DNA of 64,000 bases, taken from Turneriella parva DSM 21527. GTDB lineage: Bacteria > Spirochaetota > Leptospiria > Turneriellales > Turneriellaceae. Location of the stretch: assembly GCF_000266885.1 (NCBI RefSeq), contig NC_018020.1:1302001-1366000 (forward strand), written 5' to 3'. The notes beneath the pieces were generated by a model. It searched no databases and was not told the DNA's origin. It saw only the letters and a list, made by a program, of their open reading frames with translations. Of the stretch, positions 5,054 to 62,592 are shown piece after piece; position 1 is the first letter of the stretch; every line of letters starts with the position of its first letter. The translations under genes were made by a program, and so were the position numbers.

Positions 5054-5087
5054 TTACCCATTGAGGGCTTGCGCCCTCAATGGGTAA
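5054..5087. terminator. Hairpin containing the xdhB stop codon
   Basis: A perfect 15-base-pair stem (5054-5068 with 5073-5087) has loop TTGC. The TGA stop of xdhB (5077-5079) is inside one arm. In the direction of xdhB transcription no U-run follows; on the plus strand a run of six T follows. Confidence 0.55.
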
Positions 5088-7482
5088 TTTTTTCCATGCA
5101 CATCAAAATCTCTTCATTGGTCGCTGGCAGTTTCAAATCTGCGGCCTCACGCGGTGACAAATACGAAAGCGCATTCTTCACCGCGCAGAAAACCGCCAGC
5201 CCCAGCATCAGCGGTGGTTCAGCCACGGCCTTCGATGAGCGAATGTTAAAGTTATGCAACTTGTTATCGAAAAACTCTAGCCGCAGGTCGTCAGGTATGT
5301 CTTGTATGCTTGGTATTTTGTATGTCGTGGGGGAGTGAGATAGCAGCGCGCCTTTTTCGCTGTATTTGAGCTCCTCAGCTGTCACCCAGCCGATACCCTG
5401 CACAAGCCCGCCGATGAGTTGCCCGCGGTCGATACCCGGATTGATCGATTTGCCGATGTCCATCAGAATATCGAGCCGATCAATGGTGAGCGCGCCGGTG
5501 AAACGATCGATCGTCACCTCGGCAACGCAGGCACCATTGGTGAAATAATAGAATGGGCTGCCTTTGCCCGTCGCGTAGTCGAAGTCGAGACCGGGCGTTG
5601 CGTAGAAGCCACGCTCGCCCATCGAGATACGCTCACGCCAAGCGCGCTGCGTCAGTTCGGCGAAGGGCATTGTCTGTCCCCCCTCCCCCCGCATGCGGGG
5701 GGAGGTTGGGAGGGGGGACACAAATACGTGACCCTCCCGAAACTCCACAACCTCAGGCGCCACACCCCACAACCTCGCAACATATTCCGTGAGCCGACCG
5801 CGAATCTTGCGGCATGCGACCGCTGCTGCATTACCGTTGAGGTCTGTACCCGCCGATGCAGCGGTCGGCGCGGTGTTGTTTGACTTCTCGCTCGAAGTCG
5901 GCATCACTTTCACGTCTTCGAAACGCACCCCGAGTTCATCGGCGACGATCTGTTGTATTTTGGTGTAGAGGCCCTGGCCCATCTCGGTGCCACCCGTCGA
6001 AACCTGCACCGTACCGTCTGTGTAGACGTTCACCAACGCATTACCCTGGTTTAAGAATTTGGTGGTGAATGAAATGCCAAACTTGACGCCAGTCATCGCG
6101 AGGCCTTTGAGTTTGCCGTGTTGTCCCCCCTCCCAACCTCCCCCCGCATGCGGGGGGAGGTGCCCGTCAGGGCGGAGGGGGGACATAGGCGAAGCCGGGA
6201 GGGGGTTGGGGGCGAGGGCAGCCGCATTCTTCTTAACCACCGCCTTCCGCCTCTCCGCATAATCAGAACTTTCATACAGCTGCGCGAAAAGCTCTGGCAG
6301 TACATTGTTCTTCACGCTCTGCCCGTAATGCGTCACGCCGGTTTCGCCCTGGTACAGATTGCGGCGCCGCACCTCGTATGCGTCGAGTCCGAGTTTCGTG
6401 GCGACATTCTCCAGAATATTTTCAATCGCAGCCACTCCCTGCGGCCCGCCGAAACCGCGAAACGCAGTGTTCGACGGCAGATTGGTTTTGCAGATCGTAC
6501 CGGTCGCGCGCAGGTTAGGTATGTCATAGCAGTTGTCGGTGTGAAATAGTGTGCGTGACAGAATCGAGGTTGAGAGGTCGGCAGTGCAGCCACCGTCAGA
6601 AAAATAATCGATCTTGAGCGCCGTTACACGGCCATCGGATGAAAAGCCGACATCATAAATTGCCTTGTACGGGTGACGCTTGCCCGTCACCATCATGTCG
6701 AGGTCTTTGCTGAACTGGCAGCGTGCAGGCCGTTTCGTCTTTTGCGCGACAATCGCCGCCATGAGCGCAGGCATCACCGCCTGCGTTTCTTTGCCGCCGA
6801 AGCCGCCGCCCATGCGCTTGCAGATACACACAACCTCGCTGTGCTTAAGGCCCAGCACTTCAGCGACAACCTTCTGCACTTCGGTCGTGTTCTGCGTCGA
6901 CGAATAGACGGTGAGGTCATTGCCCTCGCCGGGCACGGCAAACGCCGCCTGTGATTCGAGATAGAACTGTTCTTGGCCACCGATGATGAATGTGCCATCA
7001 AGGCGGTGTGAGGATTTCTCGAGTGCTGCATCCACATCGCCCTGTTCCATCTTGATCGGTGTGGTTAAGAATTTCTTTTTCTCAATCGCCGCATCGATCG
7101 AAAGTATCGCGGGCAATTCGCGTAGTTCAATTTTAACCGCCTGCTTTGCCTGCGCAATTCGCTCATGCGTTGCTGCCGCTACGACCACGATCGGCTCGCC
7201 GATGAAGTGAACATGCGTCTCGGCCAGAAACACCTCGTCTTGAATAATCGGCCCAAAAAGATTCACGCCACCGATGTCTTTGTAAGTGAAAACGCAAACG
7301 CCCGGTATCTTTGCCGCAGCCGAGACATCGACGCTCAGAATCTCAGCGTGCGCGAAGCTGCTGCCTACAAAATCGACAATGAGTTCGCCCGCCATGCGCG
7401 GCATATCGTCGATGTAATGCGCCTGCCCGGTGACATGACCTACCGCCGATTCGTGTGGGTGAGAGGTGCCGACTGCGCTCAT
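5077..7482 (-). CDS. xdhB: Xanthine dehydrogenase, molybdopterin-binding subunit
   Basis: This catalytic subunit hydroxylates hypoxanthine and xanthine to urate at the molybdenum centre. Family motifs are present in order: GGQEQFYLES (substrate Glu), KRMGGGFGGKE, FRGFGGPQG with the conserved Arg, and GTEMGQGLYTKI, ending with AEPPLMLGLAVF. The length of 801 residues exceeds the usual 760-790 because two low-complexity segments, roughly PASPMSPLRPDGHLPP plus AGGGWEGGQH and VSPLPTSPRMRGEGGQ, are encoded by palindromic DNA inserts at 6121-6217 and 5675-5720. Both inserts keep the frame and fall between conserved blocks, so the enzyme may still be active. It overlaps xdhA by four bases (ATGA), indicating translational coupling. 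Confidence 0.93.
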   Translation of the reverse strand: MSAVGTSHPHESAVGHVTGQAHYIDDMPRMAGELIVDFVGSSFAHAEILSVDVSAAAKIPGVCVFTYKDIGGVNLFGPIIQDEVFLAETHVHFIGEPIVVVAAATHERIAQAKQAVKIELRELPAILSIDAAIEKKKFLTTPIKMEQGDVDAALEKSSHRLDGTFIIGGQEQFYLESQAAFAVPGEGNDLTVYSSTQNTTEVQKVVAEVLGLKHSEVVCICKRMGGGFGGKETQAVMPALMAAIVAQKTKRPARCQFSKDLDMMVTGKRHPYKAIYDVGFSSDGRVTALKIDYFSDGGCTADLSTSILSRTLFHTDNCYDIPNLRATGTICKTNLPSNTAFRGFGGPQGVAAIENILENVATKLGLDAYEVRRRNLYQGETGVTHYGQSVKNNVLPELFAQLYESSDYAERRKAVVKKNAAALAPNPLPASPMSPLRPDGHLPPHAGGGWEGGQHGKLKGLAMTGVKFGISFTTKFLNQGNALVNVYTDGTVQVSTGGTEMGQGLYTKIQQIVADELGVRFEDVKVMPTSSEKSNNTAPTAASAGTDLNGNAAAVACRKIRGRLTEYVARLWGVAPEVVEFREGHVFVSPLPTSPRMRGEGGQTMPFAELTQRAWRERISMGERGFYATPGLDFDYATGKGSPFYYFTNGACVAEVTIDRFTGALTIDRLDILMDIGKSINPGIDRGQLIGGLVQGIGWVTAEELKYSEKGALLSHSPTTYKIPSIQDIPDDLRLEFFDNKLHNFNIRSSKAVAEPPLMLGLAVFCAVKNALSYLSPREAADLKLPATNEEILMCMEKITH
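5675..5720. repeat. In-frame palindromic insert in xdhB, copy 2
   Basis: TGTCCCCCCTCC (5675-5686) pairs with GGAGGGGGGACA (5709-5720), around a 24-base perfect palindrome centred on GCATGC (5682-5705). The arms and core are the same as in the copy at 6122-6185, but the spacer is shorter. Confidence 0.85.
6122..6185. repeat. In-frame palindromic insert in xdhB, copy 1
   Basis: Outer arms TGTCCCCCCTCC (6122-6133) and GGAGGGGGGACA (6174-6185) enclose a 24-base perfect palindrome (6137-6160). The related G-rich sequence continues to about 6217. The whole stretch is translated without a stop and adds about 30 residues between two conserved XdhB blocks. Confidence 0.85.
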
Positions 7483-9026
7483 GTCCCCCTCCCAACCTTC
7501 CCCGCAGGCGGGCCGCTCGGGCGGGCAGAGCCTGCGCGTGCTGAAAGCGCAGAGGGTGACTCATGGTAGAACTTCAAAAACAAATTCTTCACCAATGCCT
7601 TACGAAACTCGGCAGAACCGCGCACATCGCTGAGCGGCGAGATTTCGGCTGTCGCAACCTGCCCCGCCTGCGCGAACGTAGCTGCTGTCCACTCGCTGCC
7701 GACGAGCGCCTTCTCGGCTGAGCGCAGGCGCACAATTGTTGCGGCGACGCCCCCGGCAGCGAGGTGCGCCTCGGTGATTTTGCCTGCCCGGGTTTTCATG
7801 TGCAGACCGAGGGTAACCGTTGAAATATCGAGGTCGCGCCGCTTCGAGACTTTGTACAGCCCGACGGCTGCATCGGCTGCGGGCAGCGGTAGAATTATTT
7901 TCGTGAGAATTTCATTGGGCTGAAGGTCAAACCGTTTGTAGCCGGTATAAAACGCATGGATCTCCACCTCGCGCGAGCCGGTAATCGATGTCAGCTCTAG
8001 CTTTGCACCGAGTACATAGAGGCAAGGCAGCGAATCGGCAATGGGTGACGCGTTGATAATATTGCCGCCGATTGTCGCGGCATTGCGAATCTGCTCGGCA
8101 GCGAAAATTTTGAGTATTGCATAAAGTTCGGGCAGACGCTGCTCTGTTGCGGCCAGCACATCTGACCAATTTGCCGCGGCGCCGATTTCGAGAGCCTGCC
8201 CAACCTGCTTCACGCCTGCTATTTCATGCAGGTGCGCGATGAACATGACTTGTGTCAGCAGAGATTTGCCTTTGTTGTGTTGCACACCGAGGTCAGTGCC
8301 CCCGGCGACAATCTTCAGTTGCGGCATCGCCGCGCGCAGCTTCAGAGCCTCAGCGAGGCTCTGCGGTTTGAAAAACAATTCACCGCCCGCGCCCGTAACC
8401 TTGACTGAATGCGAGGCGAGCACGTTAAATTCCCTTTCGATGCCCGTGCGATCGAACCGTTCAAGCAACTTTGGTGACGACCCGCCATTGAGTGCAAGAC
8501 CCGCTTTCACAATAGCTTCATAGCCAGTGCAACGGCAGAGGTTACCGGCTAGCTTGTCTTTGATACACGAGGCATCTATCGCCCTCTGCCCTTCGACGGG
8601 GCTCAGGGCGCGCTCTTCTGTCAGGTGGGCGAGTGCCATGACAAAACCCGGCGTGCAGAAGCCACACTGCGAGCCGAAGCATTCGACCATCGCCTTTTGC
8701 GCAGGGTGCAGTTCGCCCTGCGAAGAGATGCCTTCAACGGTGATCACGTGGCAAAGATCGAGCTGAAAGAGAAATTGTATGCACGAGTCGATAATACGGT
8801 ATTCGAGTTTGCGGTCGGCATGCATGGTTCGACCGGGCTCACCAACCAGCCAGCCGAGCATGACTGTGCACGCCCCGCAATCCCCCTCGCTGCACACTAC
8901 CTTGGTACCGGTCATGCCCTTGCGGTAACGCAGCCACGTTGAAAGCGGCTGAAATACCTGGCTTCCCGAAACTTCGATGCGTTCGTTGTTCAGGTAGAAG
9001 ATAACGTTTTCGCGCGTCGTTGCCAT
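7479..9026 (-). CDS. xdhA: Xanthine dehydrogenase, fused [2Fe-2S] and FAD subunit
   Basis: This subunit carries electrons from the molybdenum centre through two [2Fe-2S] clusters to FAD. The N-terminal plant-type ferredoxin domain has C45, C50 and C53 with a fourth Cys near residue 82. The second cluster domain has C121/C124 (CGFCTPG) and C164/C166 (CRCTGY). The FAD domain follows (about residues 205-485), with VAGGTDLGV and ATIGGNIINASPIADSLP. The last 25 or so residues (from SPSALSARAG) are Ala/Gly/Pro-rich and coded by a G+C-rich repeat at 7487-7558, so the original C-terminus has probably been replaced or extended. It is first in the xdhABC operon and divergent from the gene at 9141. Confidence 0.93.
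   Translation of the reverse strand: MATTRENVIFYLNNERIEVSGSQVFQPLSTWLRYRKGMTGTKVVCSEGDCGACTVMLGWLVGEPGRTMHADRKLEYRIIDSCIQFLFQLDLCHVITVEGISSQGELHPAQKAMVECFGSQCGFCTPGFVMALAHLTEERALSPVEGQRAIDASCIKDKLAGNLCRCTGYEAIVKAGLALNGGSSPKLLERFDRTGIEREFNVLASHSVKVTGAGGELFFKPQSLAEALKLRAAMPQLKIVAGGTDLGVQHNKGKSLLTQVMFIAHLHEIAGVKQVGQALEIGAAANWSDVLAATEQRLPELYAILKIFAAEQIRNAATIGGNIINASPIADSLPCLYVLGAKLELTSITGSREVEIHAFYTGYKRFDLQPNEILTKIILPLPAADAAVGLYKVSKRRDLDISTVTLGLHMKTRAGKITEAHLAAGGVAATIVRLRSAEKALVGSEWTAATFAQAGQVATAEISPLSDVRGSAEFRKALVKNLFLKFYHESPSALSARAGSARPSGPPAGKVGRGT
7487..7558. repeat. GC-rich repeat at the xdhA/xdhB junction
   Basis: The stretch begins TCCCCCTCCCAACCTTCCCC, resembling the arms of the xdhB inserts, and contains smaller inverted repeats (GCGGGC/GCCCGC, CTGCGCGT/ACGCGCAG-like). 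It encodes the unusual tail of XdhA and lies next to the ATGA overlap with xdhB. Confidence 0.5.
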
Positions 9027-9891: not shown

Positions 9892-11157
9892 ATGACTGCT
9901 GCGCTCATGGAATCTTACGTGCTCGAATGGCTACAGCTCGGCGTGCGCTGGCTGCACATGATCGCCGGCATTGCCTGGATAGGCGCGTCGTTCTATTTCG
10001 TTTGGTTAAATAATAATGTCAAAAACCCATCGCCTGCCGGCGATGGGAAATCGGAGCCTGAGGGAGTGGCTAACGCCACTCCCTCAGGCTCCGAAAGCTT
10101 TGACGGAGAATTGCATGCAATCCATGGTGGCGGGTTCTACCGCGTGCAGCGTTACGCACTCGCCCCCAAAGAACTGCCGCACGACCTGCACTGGTTTAAA
10201 TGGGAGGCCTACACCACCTGGCTTTCGGGCATCTCGCTGCTCGTGCTTGTCTATTACCTGAACCCGCAGGTTTATCTGATCGACGCGAATGTGGCAAAGC
10301 TCGAAAGCTGGGTCGCCATCAGCATCGGTGTAGGATTTCTCATCGCAGGCTGGCTGGTTTACGATTTGCTGCAACGCTCGCCATTGGGTAAAAGCCAGCT
10401 CGCCTTCGGTGCGGTCTTTTTCTCTCTCGTGATCGCCGCGAGCTATTACCTCTGCCACACGTTCGGCGGCCGCGCGGCGTATCTGCACATCGGCGCCATG
10501 CTCGGCACGATCATGGTCGGCAATGTGTTCTTTACGATAATACCCTCGCAGCGTGAACTCGTGAACGCCAAAACAGAGGGACGCCTGCCGAACAAGAAAT
10601 TCGCCGAAGCCGCTAAGAACCGTTCGCTGCATAATAACTACATCACACTGCCCGTGCTTTTTATCATGATCAGCAACCACTACCCGATGACGTTCTCGCA
10701 CGAGTACAATTGGGCGATTCTCGGTGCCATCTCATTAGGCGGCGCGCTGATTCGGCACTGGTTCAATCTTCGGGGACAGGGTAGAGCCGCGCCTTGGCTT
10801 TGGGTGATGAGTGTTGTTGTCTTTATTGCGGTTATCGTTCTGACCGCGCCCAAGCGCAGCGTCGCCCTTCGAGCGCCTCAGGGCGACGCGACGACCGTCG
10901 CCTTCGCCGAAGTCGACACTATCATCGGCAAGCACTGCCGCGGCTGCCACGCCGAGAAGCCAACCGATGCGGTCTTCAAGATTGCCCCCAATGGCGTCAA
11001 ATACGACACCCCGCAGCAGATCAGCGCAATGGCCGTTAAGATCAGGCAAAGGGCCGTTGAAACCAACTCAATGCCGTTCGGAAACAAAACGAACATGACG
11101 CAGGCCGAACGCGAGCTGCTCGGCAGGTGGATTGACCAAGGGGCGAAAGTCGAATGA
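9892..11157 (+). CDS. puuD: Membrane urate oxidase PuuD with C-terminal cytochrome c domain
   Basis: PuuD oxidises urate to 5-hydroxyisourate using a membrane domain and passes electrons to cytochrome c instead of making hydrogen peroxide. The N-terminal part has about eight membrane segments with the PuuD signatures RWLHMIAGIAWIG, GELHAIHGGGFY and GNVFFTIIPSQREL. The C-terminal domain has the haem motif CRGCH (10936-10950) and a downstream Met-containing loop (SMPFGNKTNMT). Between the first membrane segment and GELHAIHGGG there is an added stretch encoded by two perfect hairpins (10026-10092). ATG 9892 or 9907 could be the start. It lies between xdh and allantoinase genes, which supports the role. 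Confidence 0.9.
   Translation: MTAALMESYVLEWLQLGVRWLHMIAGIAWIGASFYFVWLNNNVKNPSPAGDGKSEPEGVANATPSGSESFDGELHAIHGGGFYRVQRYALAPKELPHDLHWFKWEAYTTWLSGISLLVLVYYLNPQVYLIDANVAKLESWVAISIGVGFLIAGWLVYDLLQRSPLGKSQLAFGAVFFSLVIAASYYLCHTFGGRAAYLHIGAMLGTIMVGNVFFTIIPSQRELVNAKTEGRLPNKKFAEAAKNRSLHNNYITLPVLFIMISNHYPMTFSHEYNWAILGAISLGGALIRHWFNLRGQGRAAPWLWVMSVVVFIAVIVLTAPKRSVALRAPQGDATTVAFAEVDTIIGKHCRGCHAEKPTDAVFKIAPNGVKYDTPQQISAMAVKIRQRAVETNSMPFGNKTNMTQAERELLGRWIDQGAKVE
10026..10092. repeat. Two in-frame hairpins inside puuD
   Basis: Hairpin one is CCCATCGCC (10026-10034) with GGCGATGGG (10039-10047). Hairpin two is a perfect 18-base-pair stem, 10053-10070 with 10075-10092, loop TAAC. Together they encode PSPAGDGKSEPEGVANATPS in the loop after the first membrane segment. 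Confidence 0.85.
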
Positions 11158-11163
11158 AGTTGC

Positions 11164-11202
11164 CCTCACCCCCGACCCCTCTCCCACGGGGAGAGGGGAG
11201 TG
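11164..11202. repeat. GC-rich hairpin after puuD
   Basis: CCCCTCTCCC pairs with GGGGAGAGGGG just after the puuD stop. It resembles a repeat class common in many bacterial genomes and may act as a transcript end or be a small palindromic repeat. Confidence 0.45.
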
Positions 11203-11920: not shown

Positions 11921-13273
11921 ATGCGCACCTTGTTGAAAAGTCGCCGGGCTATCATCGACAACGAGGTCCGCCCCGCAGCGGTTCTTGTCGAAGGTGAAAA
12001 GATTCGTGAGATTCTCCCTTACGATGCAGACATTGGTTCGTCTAACATCCGCATTGTCGACTACGGTGACCTGGCGCTCATGCCCGGCGTCGTCGACACG
12101 CACGTGCACATCAACGAACCTGGCCGCACCGAATGGGAAGGCTTTTCGACCGCGACCGCAGCCGCTGCCAAGGGCGGCATCACGACGCTTGTCGACATGC
12201 CGCTCAACTGCGACCCGGTGACGACCACGGTAGCGGCGCTGCAAAGCAAGGTCAAAGCCTGTTCAAACCTGCTGCATGTCGACTGCGGATTTTATGGCGG
12301 CGTGATTCCGGGTAACGTCGCTGACCTTGAACCCCTCATCGACGCCGGTGTATTGGGATTCAAAAGTTTTCTGATCCATTCGGGCATACATGAGTTTCCG
12401 CATGTCACCGAGGCCGACATTCGGGCCGCAATACCGATTCTGAAGAAGGGGGGAGTTCCGTATCTCATGCATGCGGAGCTGGAATCTCCTGTGATCAACG
12501 GCAGCAAAGCTGCCGTTGATCACAGGAGATATTCAACCTACCTCGCATCGCGCCCCCGCAAATGGGAAAACGACGCCGTCGAACTAATGGCGCGCCTCGC
12601 GGGTGAGACGAATGCGCACCTGCATGTCGTGCATCTGTCATCGTCTGACGCGCTCTCAACCCTTGCTGCCACCCGCCAACGCGGAGTGCCGATCACCGTC
12701 GAAACCTGCCATCACTATCTGACATACTGCGCCGAAGAGATTCCCGACGGCCATACCGAATACAAGTGCGCGCCACCGATTCGGGAGCGTGAGAACCGCG
12801 AGCAGCTATGGAAATCCATAGCAGACGGCACGATCGACTTTGCGGTGTCTGACCATTCGCCCTGCACACCGAACCTGAAAGAGCGCCACTCGGGTGACTT
12901 TATGAAGGCCTGGGGTGGCATCGCAGGCCTGCAGTTCAGCCTGTCGGTTTTTTATAACGGGGCGAAAGCGCGGGGTTTTGACCTCGCACAGGTGAGTCGT
13001 GCACTTTCTGCATCCCCCGCTGCATTTGTTGGCCTCAAAGATAAGGGTAGCATCGCGGTCGGCAAAGATGCCGACTTTGCCGTGTTCGACACCGAAGTAA
13101 TGTTTCGCGTCGAGCCCGGCATGATCGCGCACCGCCATGACGTTTCGCCGTACATCGGCATGCAGCTCACGGGGCTCGTCAAAGAGACCTGGCTCAGAGG
13201 GCAGCGTGTTTTCGGTGGGGATGCCCCAATCGCGCCCGCCGGTCGGCCGATCTTGCGCTCTAGCACCGGTTAA
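11921..13273 (+). CDS. allB: Allantoinase
   Basis: Allantoinase is a binuclear metal amidohydrolase that opens allantoin to allantoate. The metal-binding motif DTHVHINEPGR is followed by the lysine that is normally carboxylated (GFKSFL), then HAEL, VVHLSSSDA and VSDHSPC, all in the expected order. At 450 residues the length is normal. An added segment between HAELE and STYLASRP (PVINGSKAAVDHRRY) is encoded by a perfect 22-base-pair hairpin at 12484-12530, and an 18-base palindrome lies at 12805-12822; both keep the frame. It starts two bases after the PIN toxin gene and is followed by a metallopeptidase gene and allC. Confidence 0.92.
   Translation: MRTLLKSRRAIIDNEVRPAAVLVEGEKIREILPYDADIGSSNIRIVDYGDLALMPGVVDTHVHINEPGRTEWEGFSTATAAAAKGGITTLVDMPLNCDPVTTTVAALQSKVKACSNLLHVDCGFYGGVIPGNVADLEPLIDAGVLGFKSFLIHSGIHEFPHVTEADIRAAIPILKKGGVPYLMHAELESPVINGSKAAVDHRRYSTYLASRPRKWENDAVELMARLAGETNAHLHVVHLSSSDALSTLAATRQRGVPITVETCHHYLTYCAEEIPDGHTEYKCAPPIRERENREQLWKSIADGTIDFAVSDHSPCTPNLKERHSGDFMKAWGGIAGLQFSLSVFYNGAKARGFDLAQVSRALSASPAAFVGLKDKGSIAVGKDADFAVFDTEVMFRVEPGMIAHRHDVSPYIGMQLTGLVKETWLRGQRVFGGDAPIAPAGRPILRSSTG
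12484..12530. repeat. Perfect in-frame hairpin inside allB
   Basis: A 22-base-pair perfect stem (12484-12505 with 12509-12530) closes a loop of AAA. The sequence is unrelated to the xdhB and puuD inserts, but it is likewise translated and falls between conserved blocks. Confidence 0.88.
12805..12822. repeat. 18-base palindrome, copy 2 (inside allB)
   Basis: GCTATGGAAATCCATAGC. It is read in a different frame from the copies in xdhC and the allC-like gene: here it encodes LWKSIA. Confidence 0.7.
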
Positions 13274-18688: not shown

Positions 18689-18762
18689 GGTCATTCCCGC
18701 GAAAGCGGGAATCTTGTTTGGTGCACACATGGCAATAGATTCCCGCATGCGCGGGAATGACC
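18689..18762. repeat. REPIN-like inverted pair (ATTCCCGC repeat)
   Basis: GGTCATTCCCGC (18689-18700) and GCGGGAATGACC (18751-18762) are inverted copies. Each is the start of its own hairpin (ATTCCCGC/GCGGGAAT), so the unit can fold as two hairpins or one long one. It lies between convergent genes. Confidence 0.75.
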
Positions 18763-62375: not shown

Positions 62376-62408
62376 TTGTTGAAACAGCCGAGGCTACCTT
62401 TTTTTCAG

Positions 62409-62549
62409 GTCATGCTTCGACTGGCTCAGCATGACAATAAAATATTGGGAATGCTATTGTATTCAAGCCACGATTCAATCTGCAAGAAGACCAAGAGCCC
62501 GGCTAAAGAACCAAGCACCCTTGTCATGCTGAGCCTGTCGAAGCATGAC
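62409..62549. repeat. REPIN-like inverted pair (TTCGAC-CTCAG repeat), locus 2
   Basis: GTCATGCTTCGACTGGCTCA (62409-62428) and its inverted relative GTCATGCTGAGCCTGTCGAA (62523-62542), each a hairpin of 27 bases, are about 87 bases apart. The pair is the same type as at 47693-47815. Confidence 0.8.
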
Positions 62550-62592
62550 AAGAAAGGCGAACGCAGCCTGTTTGCTGCGCACCAAACGAAGA

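Follow-up and report, generated by a model that had tools for sequence, protein, structure and literature searches.

The gene xdhB of Turneriella parva encodes the molybdopterin subunit of xanthine dehydrogenase and holds two palindromic repeats in its reading frame. This raises the question of how such sequences came to lie in a conserved enzyme, and whether other genes of this spirochaete carry them. The stretch of DNA analysed here (the window, 64,000 nucleotides) covers positions 1,302,001-1,366,000 of a contig of 4,384,015 bp, in a genome of two contigs totalling 4,409,302 bp. The neighbours of xdhB are xdhA and the genes for a PuuD-type urate oxidase and an allantoinase, which together make up a purine-degradation cluster. 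The features discussed are listed in Table 1.

Palindromic inserts in XdhB

The original prediction held that one palindromic repeat occurs twice inside xdhB and that both copies keep the frame, and this is what we find. The two copies have in common the arms TGTCCCCCCTCC/GGAGGGGGGACA and the 24-bp perfect palindrome CCTCCCCCCGCATGCGGGGGGAGG, as had been described; they are related and mutually inverted, and are not identical. Both lie inside a single intact ORF, in which they encode the peptides SPLPTSPRMRGEGG and SPLRPDGHLPPHAGGGWEGG between blocks conserved in the Pfam and PDB relatives. The range 5675-6217 originally given for the repeat does include both copies; its last portion (6186-6217) proved to be half of another palindromic element.

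Four arm matches with at most one mismatch were seen, compared with 0.17 expected in shuffles. The DNA fold z-scores are -3.1 for copy 1 and -7.3 for copy 2, the latter folding into a three-branched structure composed of an outer stem (TGTCCCCCCTCC/GGAGGGGGGACA), an inner hairpin (CCTCCCCCCGCATGCGGGGGGAGG) and a small hairpin, GCCC-GTCA-GGGC. The absence of this second hairpin from copy 1 matches the expected product of an 18-bp deletion between GGAGG repeats. When XdhB is aligned with human xanthine dehydrogenase (2ckj), both insert sites coincide with gaps between aligned conserved blocks, the loop being 43 residues here versus 12 in the human enzyme at site 1, and 37 versus 5 at site 2.

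Table 1. Palindromic elements and associated features; plain coordinates refer to the window, aa to the residue of the encoded protein.
Feature	Position	Strand	Remarks
xdhB CDS, host of both copies	5077..7482	-	801-aa ORF; Pfam MoCoBD_1/2 and Ald_Xan_dh_C; PDB relatives 2ckj, 1jro_B
Copy 1, class A	5675..5720	-	46 bp, second hairpin gone; in frame, VSPLPTSPRMRGEGGQ, aa 588-603
Copy 2, class A	6122..6185	+	64 bp, no part missing (outer stem and both hairpins); reads in frame with XdhB (minus strand), aa 433-454
Half of older class-C-like palindrome	6186..6217	-	adjoins copy 2; coding strand CCTCGCCCCCAACCCCCTCCCGGCTTCGCC; peptide ALAPNPLPASP
Third, decayed class A copy	7482..7512	+	spans junction of xdhA 3' end and xdhB start
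Perfect hairpin in PuuD-type urate oxidase	10051..10094	+	20-bp arms, in frame; SEPEGVANATPSGSE
Intergenic class C element	11164..11200	+	just past puuD stop codon
Perfect hairpin in allantoinase	12484..12530	+	22-bp arms, in frame; z -10.2
Insert in ValS	aa 509		in frame
Insert in QueA	aa 96		in frame
Insert in Fmt	aa 257		in frame
Insert in MnmA	aa 43		in frame
Insert in FeoB	aa 192		in frame
Insert in RecQ	aa 521		in frame, between RQC and HRDC domains
Insert in acyl-CoA dehydrogenase	aa 590		in frame
Insert in DUF4007 protein	aa 88		in frame
Insert in flavin monooxygenase	aa 565		in frame
Insert in AAA protein	aa 582		in frame
Insert in SH3 protein	aa 246		in frame
GTAG copies with flanking inverted repeats	genome 118555, 163455, 408814, 1505988, 1846805, 3950098, 4205141, 4295856 and others		L034, L219-L228

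Structure and distribution of the repeat family

The repeats fall into related classes with a common plan, for which we have coined the names A (TGTCCCCC..), B (TCCCCACCCC..) and C (CCTCACCCC..CCCCTCTCC..). A full element of about 57-64 bp has three parts, namely an outer stem of 10-12 bp, an inner hairpin of 9-13 bp and a small TGCC..GGC hairpin; the lengths observed range from 46 to 94 bp. Among 38 distinct copies 92% of the pair cells are standard, and several positions covary by compensatory changes; the third outer pair, for instance, is T-A in 22 copies and C-G in 16. Composite elements at five loci (L097, L100, L101, L078 and L061) combine a class A 5' half with a class B 3' half, or have a long extra hairpin within the second hairpin, which is consistent with nesting or recombination between classes.

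Counting the repeat through the genome and in coding frames, as the original prediction had proposed, gave at least 33 distinct places with a covariance model built from six other copies (cut-off E <= 0.01); this is a lower bound, 150 of 710 candidates having been scored. BLAST with a 64-bp query returned 30 rows from the genome. An exact 21-mer search matched the two XdhB copies only and, compared with these two methods, understates the size of the family.

The same covariance model gave 19 rows in the closest congener (G011) and a few in G008, G009 and G012, and no matches in the congeners G007 and G010. A match at 1e-5 or better was present in 12 of 296 genomes of the phylum. In GTDB genomes an exact pattern was found in one Spirochaetota MAG, one Stenotrophomonas and one Armatimonadetes. 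With up to two mismatches allowed, class C has matches in each of the seven congeneric genomes; the reversed control of this search shows some background. Contigs L149, L161 and L040 of G011 end at or near sites that are filled in this genome, which suggests that these palindromes break short-read assemblies and hence are under-counted in MAGs.

In-frame copies in other proteins

Of the 35 places examined, 13 are in-frame inserts in a total of 12 conserved proteins whose domains can be recognised, two of the inserts being those of XdhB. With class C included, the DUF4007 protein has a further insert and an Lhr-type helicase has one. The elements occur in either orientation and in each of the three codon phases. 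An element has on average 5.3 of its six frames free of stops, versus 4.6 in shuffled elements and 2.5 in random sequence at the genome's GC content, and because nearly all frames are open the elements should survive easily inside genes.

In an ORF of 827 aa (L093:1310-3793), one acyl-CoA dehydrogenase domain set follows another within a single protein; congeners have long ORFs of comparable size, which suggests that they share this fusion.

Empty sites in relatives

Alignment with relatives, a check put forward for xdhB in the original prediction, revealed uninserted sites in ValS, MnmA, QueA, Fmt, RecQ and other proteins. Five congeners have no insert in ValS, where the net gain in this genome is 19 codons, or 57 bp, the element's own length. 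MnmA reads AAAGARCCCGARGCCTGC in G007 and G011, with no insert, and congeners without the insert also exist for QueA, Fmt and RecQ. Homologous non-palindromic sequence at the two XdhB sites had been named as an observation that would tell against insertion there; instead, the relative from another genus (G004) has short loops at both sites and the congeners have other palindromes, the class A element of site 1 being absent in G007 and G004. Because several sites are empty in congeners, we regard the copies as insertions and not as assembly artefacts. At the Fmt, FeoB and allantoinase sites the net gain is less than the element length, from which it follows that native loop sequence was partly lost or replaced.

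Different palindromes at the same site

In congeners the same loop often holds a different palindrome, which may be of another class, a GTAG REP identical to one beside a RAYT transposase gene, or an apparently unique perfect hairpin. Site 2 of XdhB has the class-C-like half together with class A here, a whole class C hairpin in G007 and a remnant in G008. At site 1 this genome has a class A element, G008 one of opposite orientation, and G007 a hairpin with 14-bp arms outside the defined classes. In the acyl-CoA dehydrogenase (ACAD) this genome has class A, G009 class C, G012 a remnant and G007 a hairpin with a 13-bp stem. FeoB has class B here, a GTAG palindrome in G011 and class C in G007. 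In Fmt the element is of class B both here and in G008, where it has an extra hairpin.

Four species have four different palindromes at the allantoinase site: this genome has the 22-bp hairpin, G011 a class A element, G007 a class-C-like one and G008 one of the CTTCGACAGGCTCAGG type. The 22-bp hairpin was rejected as a repeat family since a search of the genome gave no further close copy and one distant match only, with three mismatches. At the PuuD site G011 has a 19-bp hairpin of different sequence, and G007, G008 and G004 have none; about 7 of 19 arm positions differ between the two hairpins, all of them compensated, and the flanks are 82-86% identical.

In the congener stretches of eight proteins, seven of the eight perfect hairpins (arms of at least 9 bp) fall at element sites, and these sites cover 17% of the bases examined (Fisher p 3e-5); the test is fair in that the sites were picked by the element in this genome and not in the congeners, which do share ancestry. 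No recurrence of palindromes at the site was seen in congeners for ValS, QueA and RecQ. At the AAA-protein site G007 has what looks by sequence like a decayed class C, which folds no better than shuffles.

Two further repeats occur in the window. An inverted pair of TTGTCATGCTGAGCCTGTCGAAGCATGACAA-type repeats is found at 62403-62555, with a related palindrome in frame in the allantoinase of G008, and a dimer of GGTCATTCCCGCGAAAGCGGGAATCT-type repeats at 18689-18762 resembles the CGTC REP family.

Transposases and mobility

The genome contains three Y1 transposase genes, each located between palindromes of another type than classes A, B and C. The RAYT genes were rejected as the source of class A, as their flanks carry these other palindromes, and none of the Y1 transposases searched has class A, B or C repeats at its ends. 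No target-site duplication is evident at ValS or MnmA, where the empty sites come from diverged species.

The RAYT-flanking GTAG palindrome, GTAGGGGTAGGTTTAAACCTACCCCTAC (28 bp), occurs in 13 places here, and G011 has an exact copy in frame in its FeoB, which establishes a tie to the RAYT/REP world for at least one of the in-frame palindromes. Almost every copy of this 28-bp palindrome sits between the arms of a perfect inverted repeat, about 4-11 bp long and particular to that copy, as though it had entered a pre-existing hairpin exactly at the tip. At genome position 3950098 the complementary flank is kept, with compensating changes, in G011 and G007, and the G011 core is different. These observations weaken inverted duplication at insertion as the source of the matching flanks. 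An inspection by eye revealed no unique flanking inverted repeats around class A and B copies.

The dispersal of the copies, and their presence or absence between congeners, support mobility, and from these sequence comparisons we infer transposition. The original prediction spoke of selfish DNA; the repeat is indeed dispersed, in frame and variably present, and the words "selfish" and "mobile" interpret this pattern.

Origin of the inserts

We consider it probable, and hold this with good confidence, that the two XdhB inserts belong to a dispersed family of three-branched palindromes of about 60 bp that behaves like mobile DNA and survives in permissive loops, the same loops being hit or rewritten repeatedly. 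Copies would arrive at many sites in the genome, presumably by transposition, with a single-strand transposase, RAYT-like or of another kind, supplied in trans. Those arriving in coding DNA would survive only if the frame was kept and the loop was permissive, for which a GC-rich and nearly stop-free sequence would be favourable, the host probably tolerating rather than benefiting from them. Loops struck or rewritten repeatedly as the genus radiated would then hold different palindromes at one site in different species.

A second process is suggested by the hairpins that belong to none of the defined families; these may be old elements that have drifted, inverted copies of local sequence or fresh insertions. 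Tentatively, some protein loops could be long-lived palindrome sites, at which a hairpin attracts new palindromes (inserted at its tip by a single-strand transposase) and stays perfect because template switching corrects one arm against the other. If so, unrelated or drifted palindromes would succeed each other at one codon position across species, and the loop would be a fast-evolving part, driven by DNA structure, of an otherwise conserved enzyme.

We think it rather unlikely that the palindromes for the most part arise and persist in situ, with replication template switching copying one arm from the other (quasipalindrome correction) and the repeat families being secondary. Perfect hairpins would then arise at permissive loops, and their sequence would drift yet stay palindromic. 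Template switching is documented as a means by which perfect hairpins can arise and persist (PMC8794818), and cases in coding sequence are on record (PMC8604942). Unclassed perfect hairpins do occur at element sites, including the ACAD and XdhB site 1 hairpins of G007, in both of which one arm is native coding sequence, and the 22-bp hairpin of the allantoinase in this genome; the fully compensated arm differences in PuuD point the same way. However, 33 dispersed copies with a common sequence and branch order, and the exact GTAG palindrome in FeoB of G011, are left unexplained by an origin in place.

We give a still lower probability to elements that are functional at their sites, through RNA structure, attenuation or a terminator-like role, and conserved for that reason. 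Hairpins persist at the same sites though their sequence changes, and intergenic hairpins elsewhere keep complementary flanks between species; against this, many congeners are hairpin-free at the ValS, MnmA, QueA and Fmt sites, the hosts are unrelated enzymes with inserts of varying orientation and frame, and Rfam yielded no family at its threshold and only chance matches below it. An artefact of assembly, a possibility raised in the original prediction, or of annotation can practically be dismissed, for although GC-rich palindromes break assemblies and several G011 contigs end at or near element sites, this genome is in two contigs, the ORFs are intact and independent congener genomes have elements at the same sites.

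Comparison with known systems

We return to a dispersed family behaving like mobile DNA as the preferred explanation. Among bacterial MITEs (ERIC, QMITE, RU elements) there are likewise short dispersed inverted repeats, sometimes in genes, and the outer stem of 10-12 bp corresponds to their terminal inverted repeats; for the present elements no target-site duplication is evident at ValS or MnmA, and no parent transposon was identified among the Y1 transposases searched. As in RAYT/REPtron systems, the three Y1 transposase genes are flanked by palindromes, one of which is in frame in a congener FeoB, but the class A, B and C repeats do not flank them.

REPs inside genes have been described in Opitutus, Thauera, Xanthomonas and others; the GTAG and CGTC REPs are small palindromes within ORFs of several phyla, including those of tRNA synthetases and repair genes, different REPs occupy about the same recB site in two Xanthomonas species, and CGTC repeats are reported in Spirochaetes (PMC3733652). 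A GTAG REP has a GTAG terminus, a single stem-loop and an association with RAYT; the insert in FeoB of G011 has GTAG ends and matches the RAYT-flanking palindrome, whereas classes A, B and C have no GTAG ends, are branched and do not flank the RAYT genes of this genome. CGTC REPs have a CGTC/TGTC tag outside an 8-9 bp stem that starts with A-T pairs, a loop of 4-5 and a CCA tail; here TGTC lies within the outer stem, where it pairs with GACA, the structure is branched, the stem is GC and there is no CCA tail. Compared with these in-gene REPs, the same-site turnover extends here to several proteins and up to four species.

The Rickettsia palindromic elements (RPE), put forward originally as the known precedent, are palindromic, comprise many families and lie nearly half in genes, in frame, in metabolic proteins (PMC10969869). 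They are similar; as the sole precedent they are too narrow, given the in-gene REPs already described (PMC3733652). The likeness consists in a palindromic repeat in frame in conserved protein genes, opposite gaps in the orthologues. RPE differ in being about 100-150 bp long, versus 46-94 bp and three branches here, and in encoding one conserved peptide, whereas the present elements use three phases and either strand; the host here is a free-living spirochaete. Compared by features and not by RPE sequences, our elements appear to work like RPE, and membership is not implied.

In-gene palindromes are thus known in other phyla, while this family and its same-site turnover look new; among the papers covered, a search for Turneriella and palindromic gave nothing relevant. 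With empty, filled and differently filled loops available in congeners, two questions become open to test: how selfish inserts are tolerated by proteins, and whether one palindrome attracts another. Palindromic repeats have entered flexible loops of twelve or more ordinary enzymes in this free-living spirochaete with the frame intact, and since related species often have a different palindrome there, selfish DNA seems to be reshaping the same loops repeatedly. A recent review of MITEs regards the frequency of in-frame fusion of RPE as unusual and a similar process in other prokaryotes as only "conceivable" (PMC10969869); on our reading, a process comparable to that of RPE has reached ValS, QueA, Fmt, MnmA and RecQ in this one.
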